64,000 nt of DNA from a virus: positions 124,001-188,000 of IMG/VR virus record IMGVR_UViG_3300020469_000008; one strand, written 5' to 3'. Below, piece after piece: positions 27,825 through 59,079 of the stretch (position 1 is the stretch's first letter; each line of letters starts with the position of its first letter). The notes under the pieces are model-generated. The model ran no database searches and was not told the origin of the DNA. It worked only from the letters and a program-made list of their open reading frames with translations. The position numbers and the translations under genes were made by a program.

Positions 27825-28161
27825 GGGCCCGTAATGGTTTCGACGGGGTAGAATCAAGGGGAGAGTGCAAGTAGGGAAGATACGCCCTTAACAGTTCAAA
27901 CATAATAGTTGCAAACAATAACAACTTTTACGACGTAGCTTTAGCTGCATAATCGTGGTGGTCGTCTCAAACCATCTAACCAAGAGAGGCTTTAGCAGTT
28001 GGAACTGCCGAGAAATAAAATGACAACAGTCCTCACTCGGTCACGGAGAGGCGAACAATACAGTGACTATCCTGTTAATCGGAGAAATGATTAGATAAGC
28101 TTGTGAATGACTCAAACTAAGACTATTGCGGACAGGGGTTCGACTCCCCTCGGGTCCACCA
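27825..28161 (+). ncRNA. ssrA: Phage-encoded tmRNA
   Basis: The tRNA-like ends pair: GGGCCCG (27825-27831) with CGGGTCC (28151-28157), then ACCA encoded in the DNA. GGTTTCGACGGGG near the 5' end and the T-arm GGGGTTCGACTCCCC near the 3' end are diagnostic. The resume region ATAGTTGCA leads into a tag ORF at 27911-27952 encoding ANNNNFYDVALAA, whose ALAA end is a protease degron. It rescues stalled ribosomes and tags the products. One-piece form; no permutation. Confidence 0.95.
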
Positions 28162-54652: not shown

Positions 54653-55096
54653 ATGGAAGAAAACCAACAACACAATTTTATAAAACTTACATCCGAAGGA
54701 TATCCCATACAATTAAAACACAATAAAATTGATTTTTACGAGATATTCCTACAGTTTGTAAATATGTCTGAAGAAAATAGTTTTTTTGCAGAATTATTAG
54801 ACGAAGGCGTCGCAATGCATGCCGGAATGAAAACTGAAATTTGTAGAATGCATCACGACAATGATCACGTTTATATCACTTCTAAAATAAACGAATCAGA
54901 AACTTCTTCGACAGGAGAGTTTTCAGTTGATGAGGAATATACTATTTTAGGACATGCCTGTTTAGGGGTCTTATACTTTTGTGATTTGTATGCGCTCGGC
55001 ACCGGACAAAAAACACACTTTTCTTCTGCTAAAGCAAAAAAACAATTTGATAAAGCAACTGATAATAACGATAAATTCAAGGCTTGGCCTGTTTAG
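54653..55096 (+). CDS. Phage protein of unknown function
   Basis: 147 residues with AAGGAG upstream. Contains HAGMKTEICRMHHDNDHVYI, a His-rich strand-loop, and a helical C-terminus (SAKAKKQFDKATDNNDKFKA). Several His/Cys could bind metal. No family recognised. Confidence 0.55.
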   Translation: MEENQQHNFIKLTSEGYPIQLKHNKIDFYEIFLQFVNMSEENSFFAELLDEGVAMHAGMKTEICRMHHDNDHVYITSKINESETSSTGEFSVDEEYTILGHACLGVLYFCDLYALGTGQKTHFSSAKAKKQFDKATDNNDKFKAWPV

Positions 55097-55104
55097 GGGA
55101 ACGC

Positions 55105-55686
55105 ATGTCATACTATCACCAAAGTTCTTATTATAAAAGTGATGATTTGGTCAATGTAATTAAAAACACAAGAGGTAAACATACACTACCAAAAGCAACT
55201 AAAGGAAACAGGTATCTGATAATAAGTCACTATACAAATAGCTTCGGTACTACAAAGTACATTGTGCTCGACAAAGAAGGTAACGAACATTTTACGACTG
55301 AAAATTCAATACAAAAAGTAGATGACTTTTCACTGGATACATCCAGCGAATGGAATAGAGCAAAGCGAGCTTGGATGGATAGAACGTATATACCTGTCTT
55401 CGCTGTTCACACATATGATTATGTTGGTATGCCTTTTGTATCATCACGAGATGGAAACTCAAGATTAGTGAAGCCACTGTTTGGAAAAACAAATCACACC
55501 TGGGGTGACAAAGAAGGAATATGGGTTCACAAGTCACGTGTACATGACGACGACGTCAAGATTTTTATGAGTTCTTCATTTCCACCAGACATTAACAAAA
55601 AAGGAGAGACATCAGAAACTGTTACGTTTAGAGTTCCTGTTTGGTTCGCGGAAAAGAAAGGATTGTTTGATGGTAATAAAAGCTAA
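55105..55686 (+). CDS. Phage protein of unknown function
   Basis: 193 residues; the start at 55105 follows AGGGGAACGC. Beta-rich (NRYLIISHYTNSFGTTKYIV; VPVFAVHTYDYVGM-like) with many Lys and aromatic residues and YVP-type turns. The second half contains TVTFRVPVWFAEKKGLF. No family recognised. Confidence 0.55.
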   Translation: MSYYHQSSYYKSDDLVNVIKNTRGKHTLPKATKGNRYLIISHYTNSFGTTKYIVLDKEGNEHFTTENSIQKVDDFSLDTSSEWNRAKRAWMDRTYIPVFAVHTYDYVGMPFVSSRDGNSRLVKPLFGKTNHTWGDKEGIWVHKSRVHDDDVKIFMSSSFPPDINKKGETSETVTFRVPVWFAEKKGLFDGNKS

Positions 55687-55891
55687 TAAAAAAATAAGAA
55701 CGTTAATTTATAGACTTTGTAATGGGATTCGTAGAGAAAAAGATATATGTGAATATTTAATAGAAAATCATGAAGATTTTAATGACGAGTATTACACAGA
55801 AAAAACTGTCAAGTATCATTTAGAACAATTAAAAGAGTCTGGTTTGATTCATTTTAAATATAACGGTAGGATTATTGATTTAGAAAGATAA
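55670..55891 (+). CDS. Small winged-helix-like protein
   Basis: 73 residues from ATG 55670, overlapping the gene before by 17 bases. RTLIYRLCNGIRREKDICEY then TEKTVKYHLEQLKESGLIHF has the layout of a winged-helix DNA-binding domain with a recognition helix (T-V-K-Y-H-L). A possible transcription regulator. Confidence 0.6.
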   Translation: MVIKANKKIRTLIYRLCNGIRREKDICEYLIENHEDFNDEYYTEKTVKYHLEQLKESGLIHFKYNGRIIDLER

Positions 55892-55908
55892 TTATAAGAG
55901 AATCAAAA

Positions 55909-55937
55909 GTGTAACTCCTGGCAGTGCGCAATATAAT
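55909..55937 (+). promoter_or_regulatory. GTGTAA-type phage promoter
   Basis: GTGTAA (55909-55914), 17-bp spacer, TATAAT (55932-55937), intergenic before the RadA-like gene. Perfect match in both hexamers. Confidence 0.82.
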
Positions 55938-55971
55938 AAAAACACAACCTAACAAGCTAAGGAGCTAACTA

Positions 55972-56727
55972 ATGAAAATTAAGGTAAAGATTGAAGAAAT
56001 ACCGTTTGGAACTTGTATTCAAGATATTGAAGTACCATCTGTTCTAAAAAAGAGGGTGTCAACTGGGATTGGCTATTTCGATTGTGTTTTAGGTGGTGAA
56101 GGTTTCACACCGTCAATGGTGACACTGTTTACAGGAACACCTGGTGCTGGAAAAACTACCATGATGTTAACTCTAGCAAACGCATTACAAGGACACGGTG
56201 CTCAAGTCGTATTTAATACAGCTGAAGAAAGCTTGTACCAGGTTAAGATGACTGCTAATCGTCTTCGTCTTCGTCATCCATTTTGTGTTGGTGGTGAGAC
56301 AAGTGTTCCTGCTCTTTTAACAGGATGTGATAAAGTGCGTGAAGCAAACCCTGACAGGCCTTTCTTCCTTATTGTGGATTCACTCCAGTGTATGAACGAC
56401 GCGCACTTTAAAACGGGGCGCATTACTACAGCAACAGCTGAAAGAGCATTAGGCTTGTTAACAAGTTATGCTAAAGAACATGCAGTAAATGTTATCGTGA
56501 TCGGACAAGTCACTAAAGATGGCAAAATGGCAGGTTCAAATAAACTTAAACATATGGTTGACAGTCACATTCACCTCTCAGTTGAAGTTAAAGATGATGA
56601 CTTAAGAGGCTGTCGTGTTTTAGAAACTCAAAAGAATAGATTCGGAGGCGCAGGCCACGTTATCTTTTTAAGACTTCGAAGAAATGGTTTTTCAGAAGTC
56701 GCGAGAATTAGTGACTCAGGTGTTTAA
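55972..56727 (+). CDS. RadA/RecA-like ATPase
   Basis: 251 residues. A region RVSTGIGYFDCVLGGEGFTP precedes Walker A GTPGAGKT (55-62), then VVFNTAEESLYQVKMTANRL and Walker B FLIVDSLQCM, TAERALGLLTSYAKEHAVNV and KNRFGGAGHV. This order matches RadA/Sms and archaeal RadB-like ATPases (core only). It may act in recombination or helicase loading. Its operon starts at the phage promoter upstream. Confidence 0.87.
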   Translation: MKIKVKIEEIPFGTCIQDIEVPSVLKKRVSTGIGYFDCVLGGEGFTPSMVTLFTGTPGAGKTTMMLTLANALQGHGAQVVFNTAEESLYQVKMTANRLRLRHPFCVGGETSVPALLTGCDKVREANPDRPFFLIVDSLQCMNDAHFKTGRITTATAERALGLLTSYAKEHAVNVIVIGQVTKDGKMAGSNKLKHMVDSHIHLSVEVKDDDLRGCRVLETQKNRFGGAGHVIFLRLRRNGFSEVARISDSGV

Positions 56728-56738
56728 ACACACCTCTT

Positions 56739-56760
56739 GGTGAGGGTAAACCTCGCCTTT
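56739..56760 (+). terminator. Weak hairpin after the RadA-like gene
   Basis: GGTGAGG (56739-56745) pairs with CCTCGCC (56751-56757) with one G-U pair and a five-base loop, then TTT. It is preceded by the palindrome GTGTTTAAACAC (56720-56731) at the stop codon. Could attenuate transcription; the T-run is short. Confidence 0.35.
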
Positions 56761-56776
56761 CTGGAGGAAATGTGAG

Positions 56777-56956
56777 ATGTTACCAAAATGGACAGCAACA
56801 TATGTTAGAGATGATGACGATGAAAAAGAAAAAACAGTCGAAGTATATGCGGAAACTATTTTTCAAGCTTGGTATAACGCTATGAGCATAATTCAAATAT
56901 TGGAAAAAACAGAAGACTATTCAATAAAAAGTGTAAATCCTACCAAGGCAAGTTAG
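56777..56956 (+). CDS. Small acidic protein upstream of tRNA-Arg
   Basis: 59 residues with GGAGG upstream: MLPKWTATYVRDDDDEKEKT and TVEVYAETIFQAWYNAMSII. Strand then helix; resembles a small alpha/beta phage protein. Its last codons hold the -35 and -10 elements of the tRNA promoter. Function unknown. Confidence 0.6.
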   Translation: MLPKWTATYVRDDDDEKEKTVEVYAETIFQAWYNAMSIIQILEKTEDYSIKSVNPTKAS

Positions 56957-56959
56957 GAT
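56931..56959 (+). promoter_or_regulatory. GTGTAA-type phage promoter for tRNA-Arg
   Basis: GTGTAA (56931-56936), 17-bp spacer, TAGGAT (56954-56959), which overlaps the stop codon of the small gene. The tRNA begins 11 bases downstream of the -10. Confidence 0.65.
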
Positions 56960-56969
56960 TAATAGTTAG

Positions 56970-57043
56970 GCACCCGTAGCTCAGCTGGATAGAGCATCCG
57001 CCTTCTAAGCGGATGGTCACAGGTTCAAATCCTGTCGGGTGTA
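56970..57043 (+). tRNA. tRNA-Arg (TCT anticodon)
   Basis: The acceptor stem GCACCCG pairs with CGGGTGT (57036-57042). The anticodon loop CTTCTAA gives TCT, reading AGA. D-arm AGCTCAGCTGGATAGAG and T-arm CAGGTTCAAATCCTG are canonical. The 3' CCA is not encoded. AGA is a common Arg codon in this AT-rich phage. Confidence 0.95.
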
Positions 57044-57052
57044 CATTTAAGT

Positions 57053-57152
57053 AGTCGATACTTTGGGTTGGATTAATTTATCCTGTGTCCTCAGAGGTAT
57101 AAGTATCGACTTTCCTTGGTTGGCCTCTGGGGACACACTTAATTTTCTGAGG
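57053..57152 (+). ncRNA. Pseudoknotted RNA element upstream of thioredoxin
   Basis: Strands in order: AGTCGATACTT (57053-57063), TGTGTCCTCAGAGG (57084-57097), AAGTATCGACT (57101-57111), CCTCTGGGGACACA (57124-57137). The first and third pair over 11 perfect bp; the second and fourth pair over 14 bp with one G-U. The interleaving makes an H-type pseudoknot. CCTCAG (57089-57094) can alternatively pair with CTGAGG (57147-57152), the thioredoxin Shine-Dalgarno. Confidence 0.7.
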
Positions 57153-57158
57153 TGGAAG

Positions 57159-57470
57159 ATGAGATTAGTAGAAGAAAAAGAATACGACGAAATTATTGGT
57201 AATACAAGTAATTTGATTGTGCAACTATCTGCAGACTGGTGTGGTCCTTGTAGAGTGCTCACACCTATTTTAGAATCGGTTGCTAAAGAAAAAGGTATTG
57301 ATGTGATTAAAGTTAATATAGATAACAACCTGTCAATTGTTGCACGACATGCAGTTAGAGGTATACCACGAATATTATTTTTTAAAGATGGAAATGTTGC
57401 TGCTGATCTCACAGGCAATCAAAAAAGAAATAAGCTAGAAGAAGTTTGCAGTCAAGTTTATGAATGTTAA
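57159..57470 (+). CDS. Thioredoxin
   Basis: 103 residues; the start at 57159 has GAGGTGG upstream. The active site WCGPC (27-31) and the cis-Pro region RGIPRI are intact. It reduces disulfides using host reductase, and could serve ribonucleotide reductase or polymerase processivity. The upstream leader contains the pseudoknot and a strand complementary to its ribosome site. Confidence 0.95.
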   Translation: MRLVEEKEYDEIIGNTSNLIVQLSADWCGPCRVLTPILESVAKEKGIDVIKVNIDNNLSIVARHAVRGIPRILFFKDGNVAADLTGNQKRNKLEEVCSQVYEC

Positions 57471-57636
57471 AAGAAAAAAAGAAATAGAGAAGTATTACCT
57501 TCAAGTTAATCGAGCCTATCGCGATTTAAAATATATGAAGTACGATCATGAATTAAGCTTCCAAGGAGAAATAAAAATCGCAATTGTAAATCTAGAGAAG
57601 ATTAGGTTAGAATTAAAAAGAAAGTTGGAGGAATAG
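57460..57636 (+). CDS. Small basic helical protein
   Basis: 58 residues, overlapping the thioredoxin 3' end. Lys/Glu-rich helices (VKRKKEIEKYYLQVNRAYRD and VNLEKIRLELKRKLEE). The ribosome site would be within the thioredoxin gene. It ends four bases before tRNA-Gly. Function unknown. Confidence 0.55.
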   Translation: MNVKRKKEIEKYYLQVNRAYRDLKYMKYDHELSFQGEIKIAIVNLEKIRLELKRKLEE

Positions 57637-57640
57637 CTTT

Positions 57641-57713
57641 GCGGGAATAGCTCAGTTGGTAGAGCACAACCTTGCCAAGGTTGGGGTCGCGAGTTCGAAT
57701 CTCGTTTCCCGCT
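57641..57713 (+). tRNA. tRNA-Gly (GCC anticodon)
   Basis: The acceptor stem GCGGGAA pairs with TTCCCGC (57706-57712). The anticodon loop TTGCCAA gives GCC, reading GGC and GGT. D-arm and T-arm (GCGAGTTCGAATCTCGT) are canonical. CCA not encoded. Confidence 0.96.
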
Positions 57714-57720
57714 TATTTAA

Positions 57721-57793
57721 GGGCACTTAGCTCAGCGGTCAGAGCATCCGACTCATAATCGGCAGGTCCAGGGTTCAATCCCCTGAGTGCCCA
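57721..57793 (+). tRNA. tRNA-Met or Ile2 (CAT anticodon)
   Basis: The acceptor stem GGGCACT pairs with AGTGCCC (57786-57792). The anticodon loop CTCATAA gives CAT. It could be elongator Met or, if lysidine-modified, Ile reading ATA, which is a frequent codon here. T-arm CCAGGGTTCAATCCCCTG is canonical. It lies seven bases after tRNA-Gly. Confidence 0.95.
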
Positions 57794-57816
57794 CACATCT
57801 TAACAAAGGAGAAAAA

Positions 57817-58011
57817 ATGTTAGGTTTAAGTAAGAAACAATTATCAGATGGGTGTTATGTTGCATCCTTAGTTTCAGTCGCAGTATCAATTGCAACTTGG
57901 GTTTTGATATCACCGGAAGATCCCGCGCATGGAGAACGCTTTGCATTATTTATTGGGCTTTGGGCGCCAACACTTATGGGTCTTGCAAATTATTATAAGA
58001 CAGAGGAGTAA
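57817..58011 (+). CDS. Small membrane protein
   Basis: 64 residues from ATG 57817 (AAAGGAG upstream). Two hydrophobic segments (CYVASLVSVAVSIATWVLI and FALFIGLWAPTLMGLANYY). Holin-like size; no lysis gene adjacent. First of a run of tiny membrane proteins. Confidence 0.65.
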   Translation: MLGLSKKQLSDGCYVASLVSVAVSIATWVLISPEDPAHGERFALFIGLWAPTLMGLANYYKTEE

Positions 58012-58014
58012 TCA

Positions 58015-58167
58015 ATGAATGCCGTCGAATTCCTGTTCGCGCTAGCAGCCGTGTTCGGTTCAACGGCGCTTTGGCTTGTTTGGACAAGTTTTGTTTACAG
58101 AATTGAGAAGTATTCTCAAGAAGACAATACTGATCAATTTAAAAATAATGAAGAAACAATCGTATAA
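58015..58167 (+). CDS. Tiny membrane protein with GC-rich start
   Basis: 50 residues, start three bases after the previous stop. One hydrophobic segment (FLFALAAVFGSTALWLVWTSF) and an acidic/Asn-rich tail. The first 60 bases are clearly richer in G and C than surrounding genes, which may reflect recent acquisition. Confidence 0.55.
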   Translation: MNAVEFLFALAAVFGSTALWLVWTSFVYRIEKYSQEDNTDQFKNNEETIV

Positions 58168-58342
58168 CACGTTTTATTTGAAAGGTGATAATATTTCAAA
58201 AATAATTGAATCAATAATCAATCTAATTTCAGTTACAGTCATTTCAGCTGTTTCGTTGGTTGGCATTGGATTGGAATTCGGATTGAAAATTATTTACTAC
58301 AGCTTTATCATTTTTTTGGTAGCAAAATGTGTAGGATATTAG
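58148..58342 (+). CDS. Small membrane protein
   Basis: 64 residues from ATG 58148, overlapping the previous gene by 20 bases. Long hydrophobic stretch (IINLISVTVISAVSLVGIGL then IIYYSFIIFLVAKCVGY), probably two spans. Weak ribosome site. Function unknown. Confidence 0.5.
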   Translation: MKKQSYNTFYLKGDNISKIIESIINLISVTVISAVSLVGIGLEFGLKIIYYSFIIFLVAKCVGY

Positions 58343-58352
58343 GAGAGAAATA

Positions 58353-58430
58353 ATGTTATTTTTTCTATGCACAATTTTATTTGTGTTTGTTTTCACAGTA
58401 GTTTGGATGTGGATTTTCGATAGAGGATGA
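58353..58430 (+). CDS. Micro membrane peptide
   Basis: 25 residues after AGGAGAG: MLFFLCTILFVFVFTVVWMW then IFDRG. A single transmembrane helix. The good ribosome site and tight spacing to the next gene (one base) support it being real. Confidence 0.5.
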   Translation: MLFFLCTILFVFVFTVVWMWIFDRG

Positions 58431-58431
58431 A

Positions 58432-58572
58432 ATGATTTTGCTAATGTTTTTACTAGGGTGTTCAGCTGAACACTTTAATTCAGAAATAAACAACAACAAC
58501 ATTTATATATGCTTTTCAATGAAAGCAGCCGGTGATTGTGATGAAGAAACCTTACGAACATTTTCAGATTGA
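58432..58572 (+). CDS. Tiny lipoprotein
   Basis: 46 residues. MILLMFLLGCSAEHFNSEIN carries a lipobox LLGC (Cys10). Then an Asn-rich stretch and CFSMKAAGDC, giving three Cys in total. AGAGGATGAA serves as the ribosome site. It overlaps the next gene. Likely envelope-bound. Confidence 0.55.
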   Translation: MILLMFLLGCSAEHFNSEINNNNIYICFSMKAAGDCDEETLRTFSD

Positions 58573-58819
58573 TCTACATAAATTTATAAGGACATTCAGG
58601 GCAGATGATATTAAGTCTGATGACTTGATTTGGCACCGCGATGAGAATGAAAGGTTGATATATGTTATCCACGTTGATCCAGGTTGGACTTTTCAGAGAG
58701 ATAACCGGTTACCACAAAAAATGGTTTCAAATAAAACAGTGATAAGAATTGAAGCAGGAGAATACCATAGGATAACCAAAGGTAGTGGAGTCTGCGTTCT
58801 ATATATAGAGGAGAAATAA
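58541..58819 (+). CDS. Small cupin-like protein, uncertain
   Basis: 92 residues; start at ATG 58541 (an upstream GTG at 58532 is possible). Contains LIWHRDENERLIYVIHVDPG and TVIRIEAGEYHRITKGSG, a strand-rich pattern like a cupin barrel with His residues that could bind metal. Function unknown. Confidence 0.5.
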   Translation: MKKPYEHFQIDLHKFIRTFRADDIKSDDLIWHRDENERLIYVIHVDPGWTFQRDNRLPQKMVSNKTVIRIEAGEYHRITKGSGVCVLYIEEK

Positions 58820-59079
58820 TGAATAAAGTATTTAATTTTTTAAAGACAGTTTGGTCTTGGGTTTATGAAAGAACAGTAATCTGGTGTATTTTTGCATTTT
58901 TCATTTTAATGGGTTGGGGACAATTGCAGAAAAATGAAATGTCACTTGAATTTAAAGAAGCAATTCTAAATTGTAAGGTGACATGTTTGCCATCTTCTTC
59001 AGAGTACTTTGATAACAAAGATACAAACCAGTGCTGGTGTTACAAGGATGTAAATACCTTAGTAAAACCCAGTAAATAG
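58819..59079 (+). CDS. Small single-span membrane protein with Cys-rich domain
   Basis: 86 residues after GAGGAG, one-base overlap with the gene before. A hydrophobic segment (TVIWCIFAFFILMGWGQL) is followed by a soluble part with Cys at CKVTC and CWC. Probably faces the periplasm with disulfides. Function unknown. Confidence 0.6.
   Translation: MNKVFNFLKTVWSWVYERTVIWCIFAFFILMGWGQLQKNEMSLEFKEAILNCKVTCLPSSSEYFDNKDTNQCWCYKDVNTLVKPSK

Follow-up and report, generated by a model that had tools for sequence, protein, structure and literature searches.

A phage pseudoknot RNA family with a loop antisense to gene leaders, a putative repressor of early genes

The window analysed here is a stretch of 64,000 nucleotides and spans positions 124001-188000 of a virus record that is 202,054 bases long. 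Within it a gene for a RadA/KaiC-like ATPase (radA) is followed on the same strand by a tRNA-Arg gene, a structured intergenic element and a thioredoxin gene (Table 1). The second promoter in Table 1 is uncertain because it overlaps the end of a small ORF. The phage also has a tmRNA gene (27825-28161) with the tag ANNNNFYDVALAA.

Table 1. Features of the radA-thioredoxin region, in window coordinates
Feature	Position	Strand	Basis or remark
Early-type promoter of the radA transcript, AAAAGTGTAAC ... TATAAT	55906..55940	+	block common to about 18 other gene starts in the same genome
radA, RadA/KaiC-like ATPase gene; upstream of the element in nearly all members	55972..56727	+	PF06745, E 3e-12
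Candidate second promoter AAAAGTGTAAA with a weak -10, 5′ of tRNA-Arg and element	56928..56966	+	pattern search; uncertain
tRNA-Arg (TCT); element starts 8 nt later	56970..57044	+	ARAGORN, Rfam
Helix A 5′ strand (A) AGTCGATACTT	57053..57063	+	stem scan, shuffle test
Loop L1: TGGGTT and possible small hairpin GGAT...ATCC	57064..57083	+	fold
Helix B 5′ strand (B) TGTGTCCTCAGAGGT	57084..57098	+	stem scan, column-shuffle test
Helix A 3′ strand (A′) AAGTATCGACT	57101..57111	+	stem scan, shuffle test
Antisense (A′-B′) loop TTTCCTTGGTTG, core CCTTGG conserved; complements early-gene leaders (A)ACCAA(A)GGAAA	57111..57122	+	
Helix B 3′ strand (B′) GCCTCTGGGGACACA	57123..57137	+	stem scan, column-shuffle test
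Weak T-stretch 3′ of B′	57138..57148	+	clear terminator T-run here in several relatives
Thioredoxin gene; follows the element here, linkage not conserved	57159..57470	+	PF00085, E 1e-21

The element (57053-57137) is built from four strands in the order A-B-A′-B′. Helix A comprises 11 Watson-Crick pairs and helix B comprises 14 pairs including one G-U (57084-57097 with 57124-57137), or 15 pairs including two G-U if a further U-G pair is counted. The loops are accordingly 20, 3 and 12 nt long, or 20, 2 and 11 nt with the fifteenth pair, and the A′-B′ loop reads 5′-UUUCCUUGGUUG-3′. This agrees with the strands, pairs and loops given in the initial annotation, and the next-best stem pair is far weaker: in a scan for interleaved stems on both strands of the window, the summed stacking of the element is -51.4 kcal/mol and that of the runner-up -35.4 kcal/mol. 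The element is a clear outlier in the 64 kb and not a product of chance. In a nested-only fold of the region the dominant hairpin is helix B.

The view that this fold lies outside the known classes is borne out by an Rfam search of positions 55000-59000 (E<=1), which left the element unmatched and returned only three tRNAs and two sub-threshold matches on tRNAs. Nor does any Rfam 15 covariance model cover any of the relatives described below, in a search that included all of them except G008. HDV-like ribozymes have a P3 hairpin between the 5′ strand of P2 and the 3′ strand of P1; we rejected such a ribozyme here, as the strand order does not fit and only 2-3 nt, with no P3 hairpin, separate B from A′.

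A DNA similarity search of the region in phage records gave tRNA matches only, the exact stem pattern had zero matches in viral contigs, and none of the many thioredoxin homologues used as anchors had a related leader (blastn). Because the leader was without a DNA-level match in phage records, the RadA/KaiC-like gene was chosen as the anchor; 39 radA loci were fetched first, and more were added by profile and single-relative searches. A pseudoknot scan blind to loop sequence identified the same architecture in several loci, the loops of which share CCTTGG, and a scan for a hairpin with CTTGG just 5′ of its 3′ strand, helix A not being required, gave ten members. Such hairpin scans produce many chance matches, and strong B hairpins alone were retained. 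The family has 14 members, namely the window element (G000) and 13 in related phage contigs: G001 (L076), G006 (L084), G008 (L087), G009 (L089), G010 (L090), G011 (L091), G013 (L094), G014 (L096), G017 (L107), G018 (L111), G021 (L195), G022 (L201) and G023 (L212). The G008 member is a hairpin only, with helix A missing, and that of G023, which has a divergent loop, was first spotted by eye. The contigs are of environmental origin, and several of them are incomplete. The radA genes included here share 56-80% identity with that of the window, so the members do not represent independent events. No element was found in the whole sequence scanned of G015 and G012, even under relaxed criteria, and bacterial genome contigs yielded five RadA relatives and no new member among those inspected. 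One contig of a Halobacteriovorax MAG (L411; 101,404 bases) agrees with G008 in both length and coordinates, which is either a hint of the host or a binning error.

All 14 members pair in helix B and 13 of them also in helix A, with stems of unlike sequence. Across 13 members the pairing cells are filled in 129 of 130 cases for A and 130 of 130 for B, against maxima of 78 and 85 in column shuffles. As the stems had been picked for pairing, a fairer test is of A given B: when the upstream sequence was dinucleotide-shuffled, helix A stood out in 12 of the 14 members (at most 9 of 1,000 shuffles each; Fisher 9e-19), G008 and G014 failing. The covariation check proposed for homologues thus comes out in favour of both stems, with pairing retained while stem sequences differ; the computations establish an H-type pseudoknot RNA whose interleaved A-B-A′-B′ helices are kept through sequence change. 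The conserved portion of the element is the A′-B′ loop, which the original reading did not use, and it is the stem sequences that vary. L1 begins with UGGGUU in the window (57064-57069), G001 and G017 and with UUGGUU in G021, a start that could serve as another antisense segment or make a tertiary contact.

At least ten members start inside or directly 3′ of the end of radA, and in several radA-linked members helix A lies within the final radA codons. The members in the window, G001 and G021 are 8-15 nt 3′ of a tRNA (Arg, Met and Leu) and still downstream of radA. In about half of the members B′ is followed by a T-run like that of an intrinsic terminator, and in other relatives plain terminators occupy the place of the element. 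Short, intergenic GC-rich inverted-repeat arrays of the GGGGCCC type occur behind radA in L087, L091, L095, L103 and L111; repeats of this kind score in the pseudoknot scan, and we set them aside as a separate, repetitive feature. One relative has a Group I intron (Rfam RF00028) in its tRNA region (L107:490-693). At a radA locus that is more distantly related (L259:3242-3420) the pseudoknot is absent and the downstream repeats GTGGTTGGT and CTCCTTGG complement that locus's own radA leader, ACCAACCAAGGAG, perhaps another architecture with the same job.

Searching the same genomes for copies of TCCTTGGTY gave 3 + 8 sites in G001, against 0 for reversed controls. Most such sites in G001 and in the early DNA of G000 are the reverse complement of gene leaders, in which a promoter is followed by ...AACCAACCAAGGAAA..ATG. 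Other CCTTGG sites, considered as extra copies of the element, turned out to lie antisense to gene leaders or within coding sequence. G000 has an early promoter class, AAAAGTG(T/C)AAC-N~16-TATACT with AACCAA leaders, most copies of which fall in the 191-202 kb part of the contig, with others in front of radA and an AAA gene; one such leader is AACCAATCAACCAAGGAAACATTATG, and the loop segment of the window element is CCTTGGTT. The mean pairing energy of the window loop is -14.3 kcal/mol for 16 early-class leaders, compared with -8.7 kcal/mol for 234 further starts that bear an SD (p=2.6e-8), a preference reached by 0 of 200 shuffled loops. Loops of the same TTG class (G010 and G017) pair with the G000 early leaders equally well or better, and loops of other classes do worse (-7 to -13 kcal/mol); the 3′ end of 16S rRNA, represented by an E. 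coli-type sequence, pairs with them at -7.8 kcal/mol. The stretch at 191-202 kb (L122:3500-14254) consists of dense small genes, each with an early-class promoter and AACCAA leader, and is likely to be an early region truncated where the contig stops. It includes, outside the window at L122:7976 (position 195776 of the contig), another paralogue of the RadA/KaiC-like gene (MKLNVKIEE...), which carries a leader of the early class; G001 likewise has the RadA/KaiC-like gene in two copies.

In most radA-linked members the loop matches the leader of the same genome's radA, and in several it also matches the leader of a gene of the AAA_5 family (PF07728). The G013 loop ATTCCTTGGCTAC has counterparts in the leaders of radA (CCTAGCCAAGGAAG) and of a 359-aa AAA gene (CTAAGCCAAGGAAA). 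In G014 (loop CCTTGGTCTAG) and G010 (loop CTCCTTGGTTG) radA and the AAA gene have the same leader, CTAGACCAAGG and CAACCAAGGAG, respectively, and in G006 the loop is TTCCTTGGTGAG and the radA leader CTCACCAAGGAA. Between phages the flanks of the loop and the radA leader change together in complementary classes (TTG/CAA, TGAG/CTCA, TCTA/TAGA and CTA/TAG). When the loops of 13 genomes were paired with the radA leaders of all of them, cognate pairs had a mean energy of -16.4 kcal/mol, compared with -13.6 kcal/mol for all pairs, and longest runs of 8.6 versus 7.1 nt; neither value was equalled in 100,000 permutations, a test that measures the flanks because the core is common to nearly all loops. 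Among class representatives (G010, G006, G014, G013 and G023) each cognate pair tops both its row and its column of the 5x5 matrix. These statistics take related genomes as separate samples, and at least four (four to five) loop/leader classes agree.

Genome-wide, radA and/or AAA_5 leaders are among the best non-self sites matching the loop over at least 9 nt (9-13) in G006, G008, G010, G013 and G014, and such leaders are also present among the matches in G011. About ten sites in G001 lie before reading frames, and three leaders in G000 match over 11-12 nt. Top-target energies beat those of shuffled loops (0-1 of 60) in G000, G001, G006, G008, G010, G011, G013, G014 and G017 and are no better in G009, G018, G021, G022 and G023. 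In this test G006, G011 and G017 count as weak support, because the top match in G006 is the element's own antisense and those in G011 and G017 are not radA or AAA leaders; a cognate radA leader match is absent for the G017 loop. G015 and G012 carry GACCAAGGAG-type leaders before radA and AAA genes even though the element was not found there, so this type of leader also has another use. By computation, the complementarity of the loop to the SD regions of targets exceeds chance and the two co-vary.

On this evidence it is rather probable that the element is the structured body of a phage antisense RNA, whose pseudoknot presents an anti-SD loop and represses a regulon defined by its leaders. Helices A and B would form the H-type pseudoknot and display a loop of 9-13 nt beside a stable 3′ hairpin. 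The RNA could be freed when transcription ends after B′ or through processing, and in three members tRNA processing could define its 5′ end. The loop is predicted to pair with the shared 5′ leader of early-promoter phage genes, including the Shine-Dalgarno site (here AACCAA(A)GGA(A/G)A), in a duplex that would block binding of the 30S subunit and probably become exposed to RNases. In most relatives the RNA would be a radA 3′UTR directed at the radA leader, and in several at the AAA ATPase leader too; feedback on the radA/AAA module, in cis or in trans, is possible because the radA-3′UTR RNA pairs with those leaders. The window RNA, in the tRNA-Arg/thioredoxin part downstream of radA, would most likely act in trans on about 15 early genes. 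Pairing would mean feedback on radA and shut-off for early genes. Since a change in the loop goes with a change in the leaders from phage to phage, the knotted RNA probably switches off several of the phage's genes through base-pairing; from the sequences we infer that it is transcribed as a free RNA, that repression results, and the timing. The chances are about even that one pseudoknot RNA governs the whole early regulon through the shared leader, with loop/leader co-evolution as a private code for each lineage.

The nearest competitor to an antisense RNA with trans targets is a purely cis arrangement, as for icaR, in which a 3′UTR element pairs only with the 5′ leader of the radA mRNA that carries it. 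It is a real rival where the element forms the radA 3′UTR, since most members lie directly 3′ of radA and radA leaders are cognate targets. As a general account we consider it unlikely: in G010, G013 and G014 the match to AAA_5 leaders, which lie several kb off, is just as good, three members sit behind tRNAs, and the best targets in G000 and G001 are other genes, the window radA leader pairing weakly with its own loop (5-nt run, -12.2 kcal/mol) and trans targets pairing better. A 3′-end stabiliser or pseudoknotted intrinsic terminator, the loop motif having another role (for example, protein binding) and the leader match being secondary, would fit the stable 3′ hairpin, the T-runs of several members and the plain terminators found in the same place in other relatives, but leaves the co-variation of loop flanks and leaders unexplained and is improbable.

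Two further readings have even less in their favour. The initial annotation saw a cis riboswitch or protein-binding leader of thioredoxin, in which ligand or protein would switch helix B between B′ and the thioredoxin SD. The complementarity of CCTCAG to CTGAGG on which it drew is present, as part of a 9-bp B:SD helix (-12.2 kcal/mol, reached by about 1% of shuffles). B:B′, at -27.3 kcal/mol, exceeds this by 15 kcal/mol, and transcription completes B′ ahead of the SD, which makes an exclusive-fold switch unlikely; in relatives, moreover, radA or a tRNA precedes the element, the downstream sequence varies and there is no conserved linkage to thioredoxin. This reading is very improbable. What survives of it is an apparent role tied to Shine-Dalgarno sites, through the A′-B′ loop as antisense to the leaders of other genes. 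Least probable of all is that the element is a relic of a minus-strand gene start, the antisense match mirroring an opposite-strand leader. The reverse complement of the loop does resemble a leader, but we rejected an opposite-strand gene start because no convincing minus-strand reading frame lies behind the match in the members (the sole ORF, in G006, is antisense to radA), and such a relic does not predict pairing in A and B.

Anti-SD base-pairing RNAs are already known. In the Staphylococcus aureus icaR mRNA an anti-SD motif in the 3′UTR pairs with the SD of the same gene, which blocks ribosome loading and yields an RNase III substrate (PMC3868564); that system is bacterial and has no pseudoknot, and its UCCCC motif is reported as not kept in other staphylococci (PMC3868564), whereas the present element belongs to a family in phages, has targets beyond radA, and shows loop and leader co-varying. 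S. aureus sRNAs of the RNAIII and RsaE type use a C-rich anti-SD motif in trans on the SD regions of several mRNAs (PMC3868564), but are bacterial regulators that are not H-type pseudoknots and whose targets share the SD only, with no lineage-specific leader. In its logic the functional analogue is RegA of T4, one phage factor acting on the initiation regions of about 30 early phage mRNAs (PMC3014915), although RegA is a protein and the repressor proposed here is an RNA that would act by base-pairing. The T4 gene 32 mRNA also has a pseudoknot tied to translation control, but in a 5′ leader bound by gp32 in cis (PMC3014915) rather than in a 3′UTR or intergenic RNA with an antisense loop. VpdS and PreS are phage-encoded regulatory RNAs, PreS targeting host dnaN and VpdS acting on phage and host RNAs, but they are Hfq-dependent, come from temperate phages and have another fold (review PMC12197685). 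In Rfam and the open papers searched we found no phage family combining such an architecture with a lineage-specific shared leader target.

Nature has in effect supplied compensatory mutants in the form of the co-varying pairs of loop and leader. If the antisense reading is correct, the element would represent a new phage RNA family in a field known mostly from temperate-phage examples, and would help to explain the long AACC-plus-SD sequence common to early leaders in these phages. It would also mean that large phages can shut off or balance an early regulon by RNA, and not by repressor protein alone.
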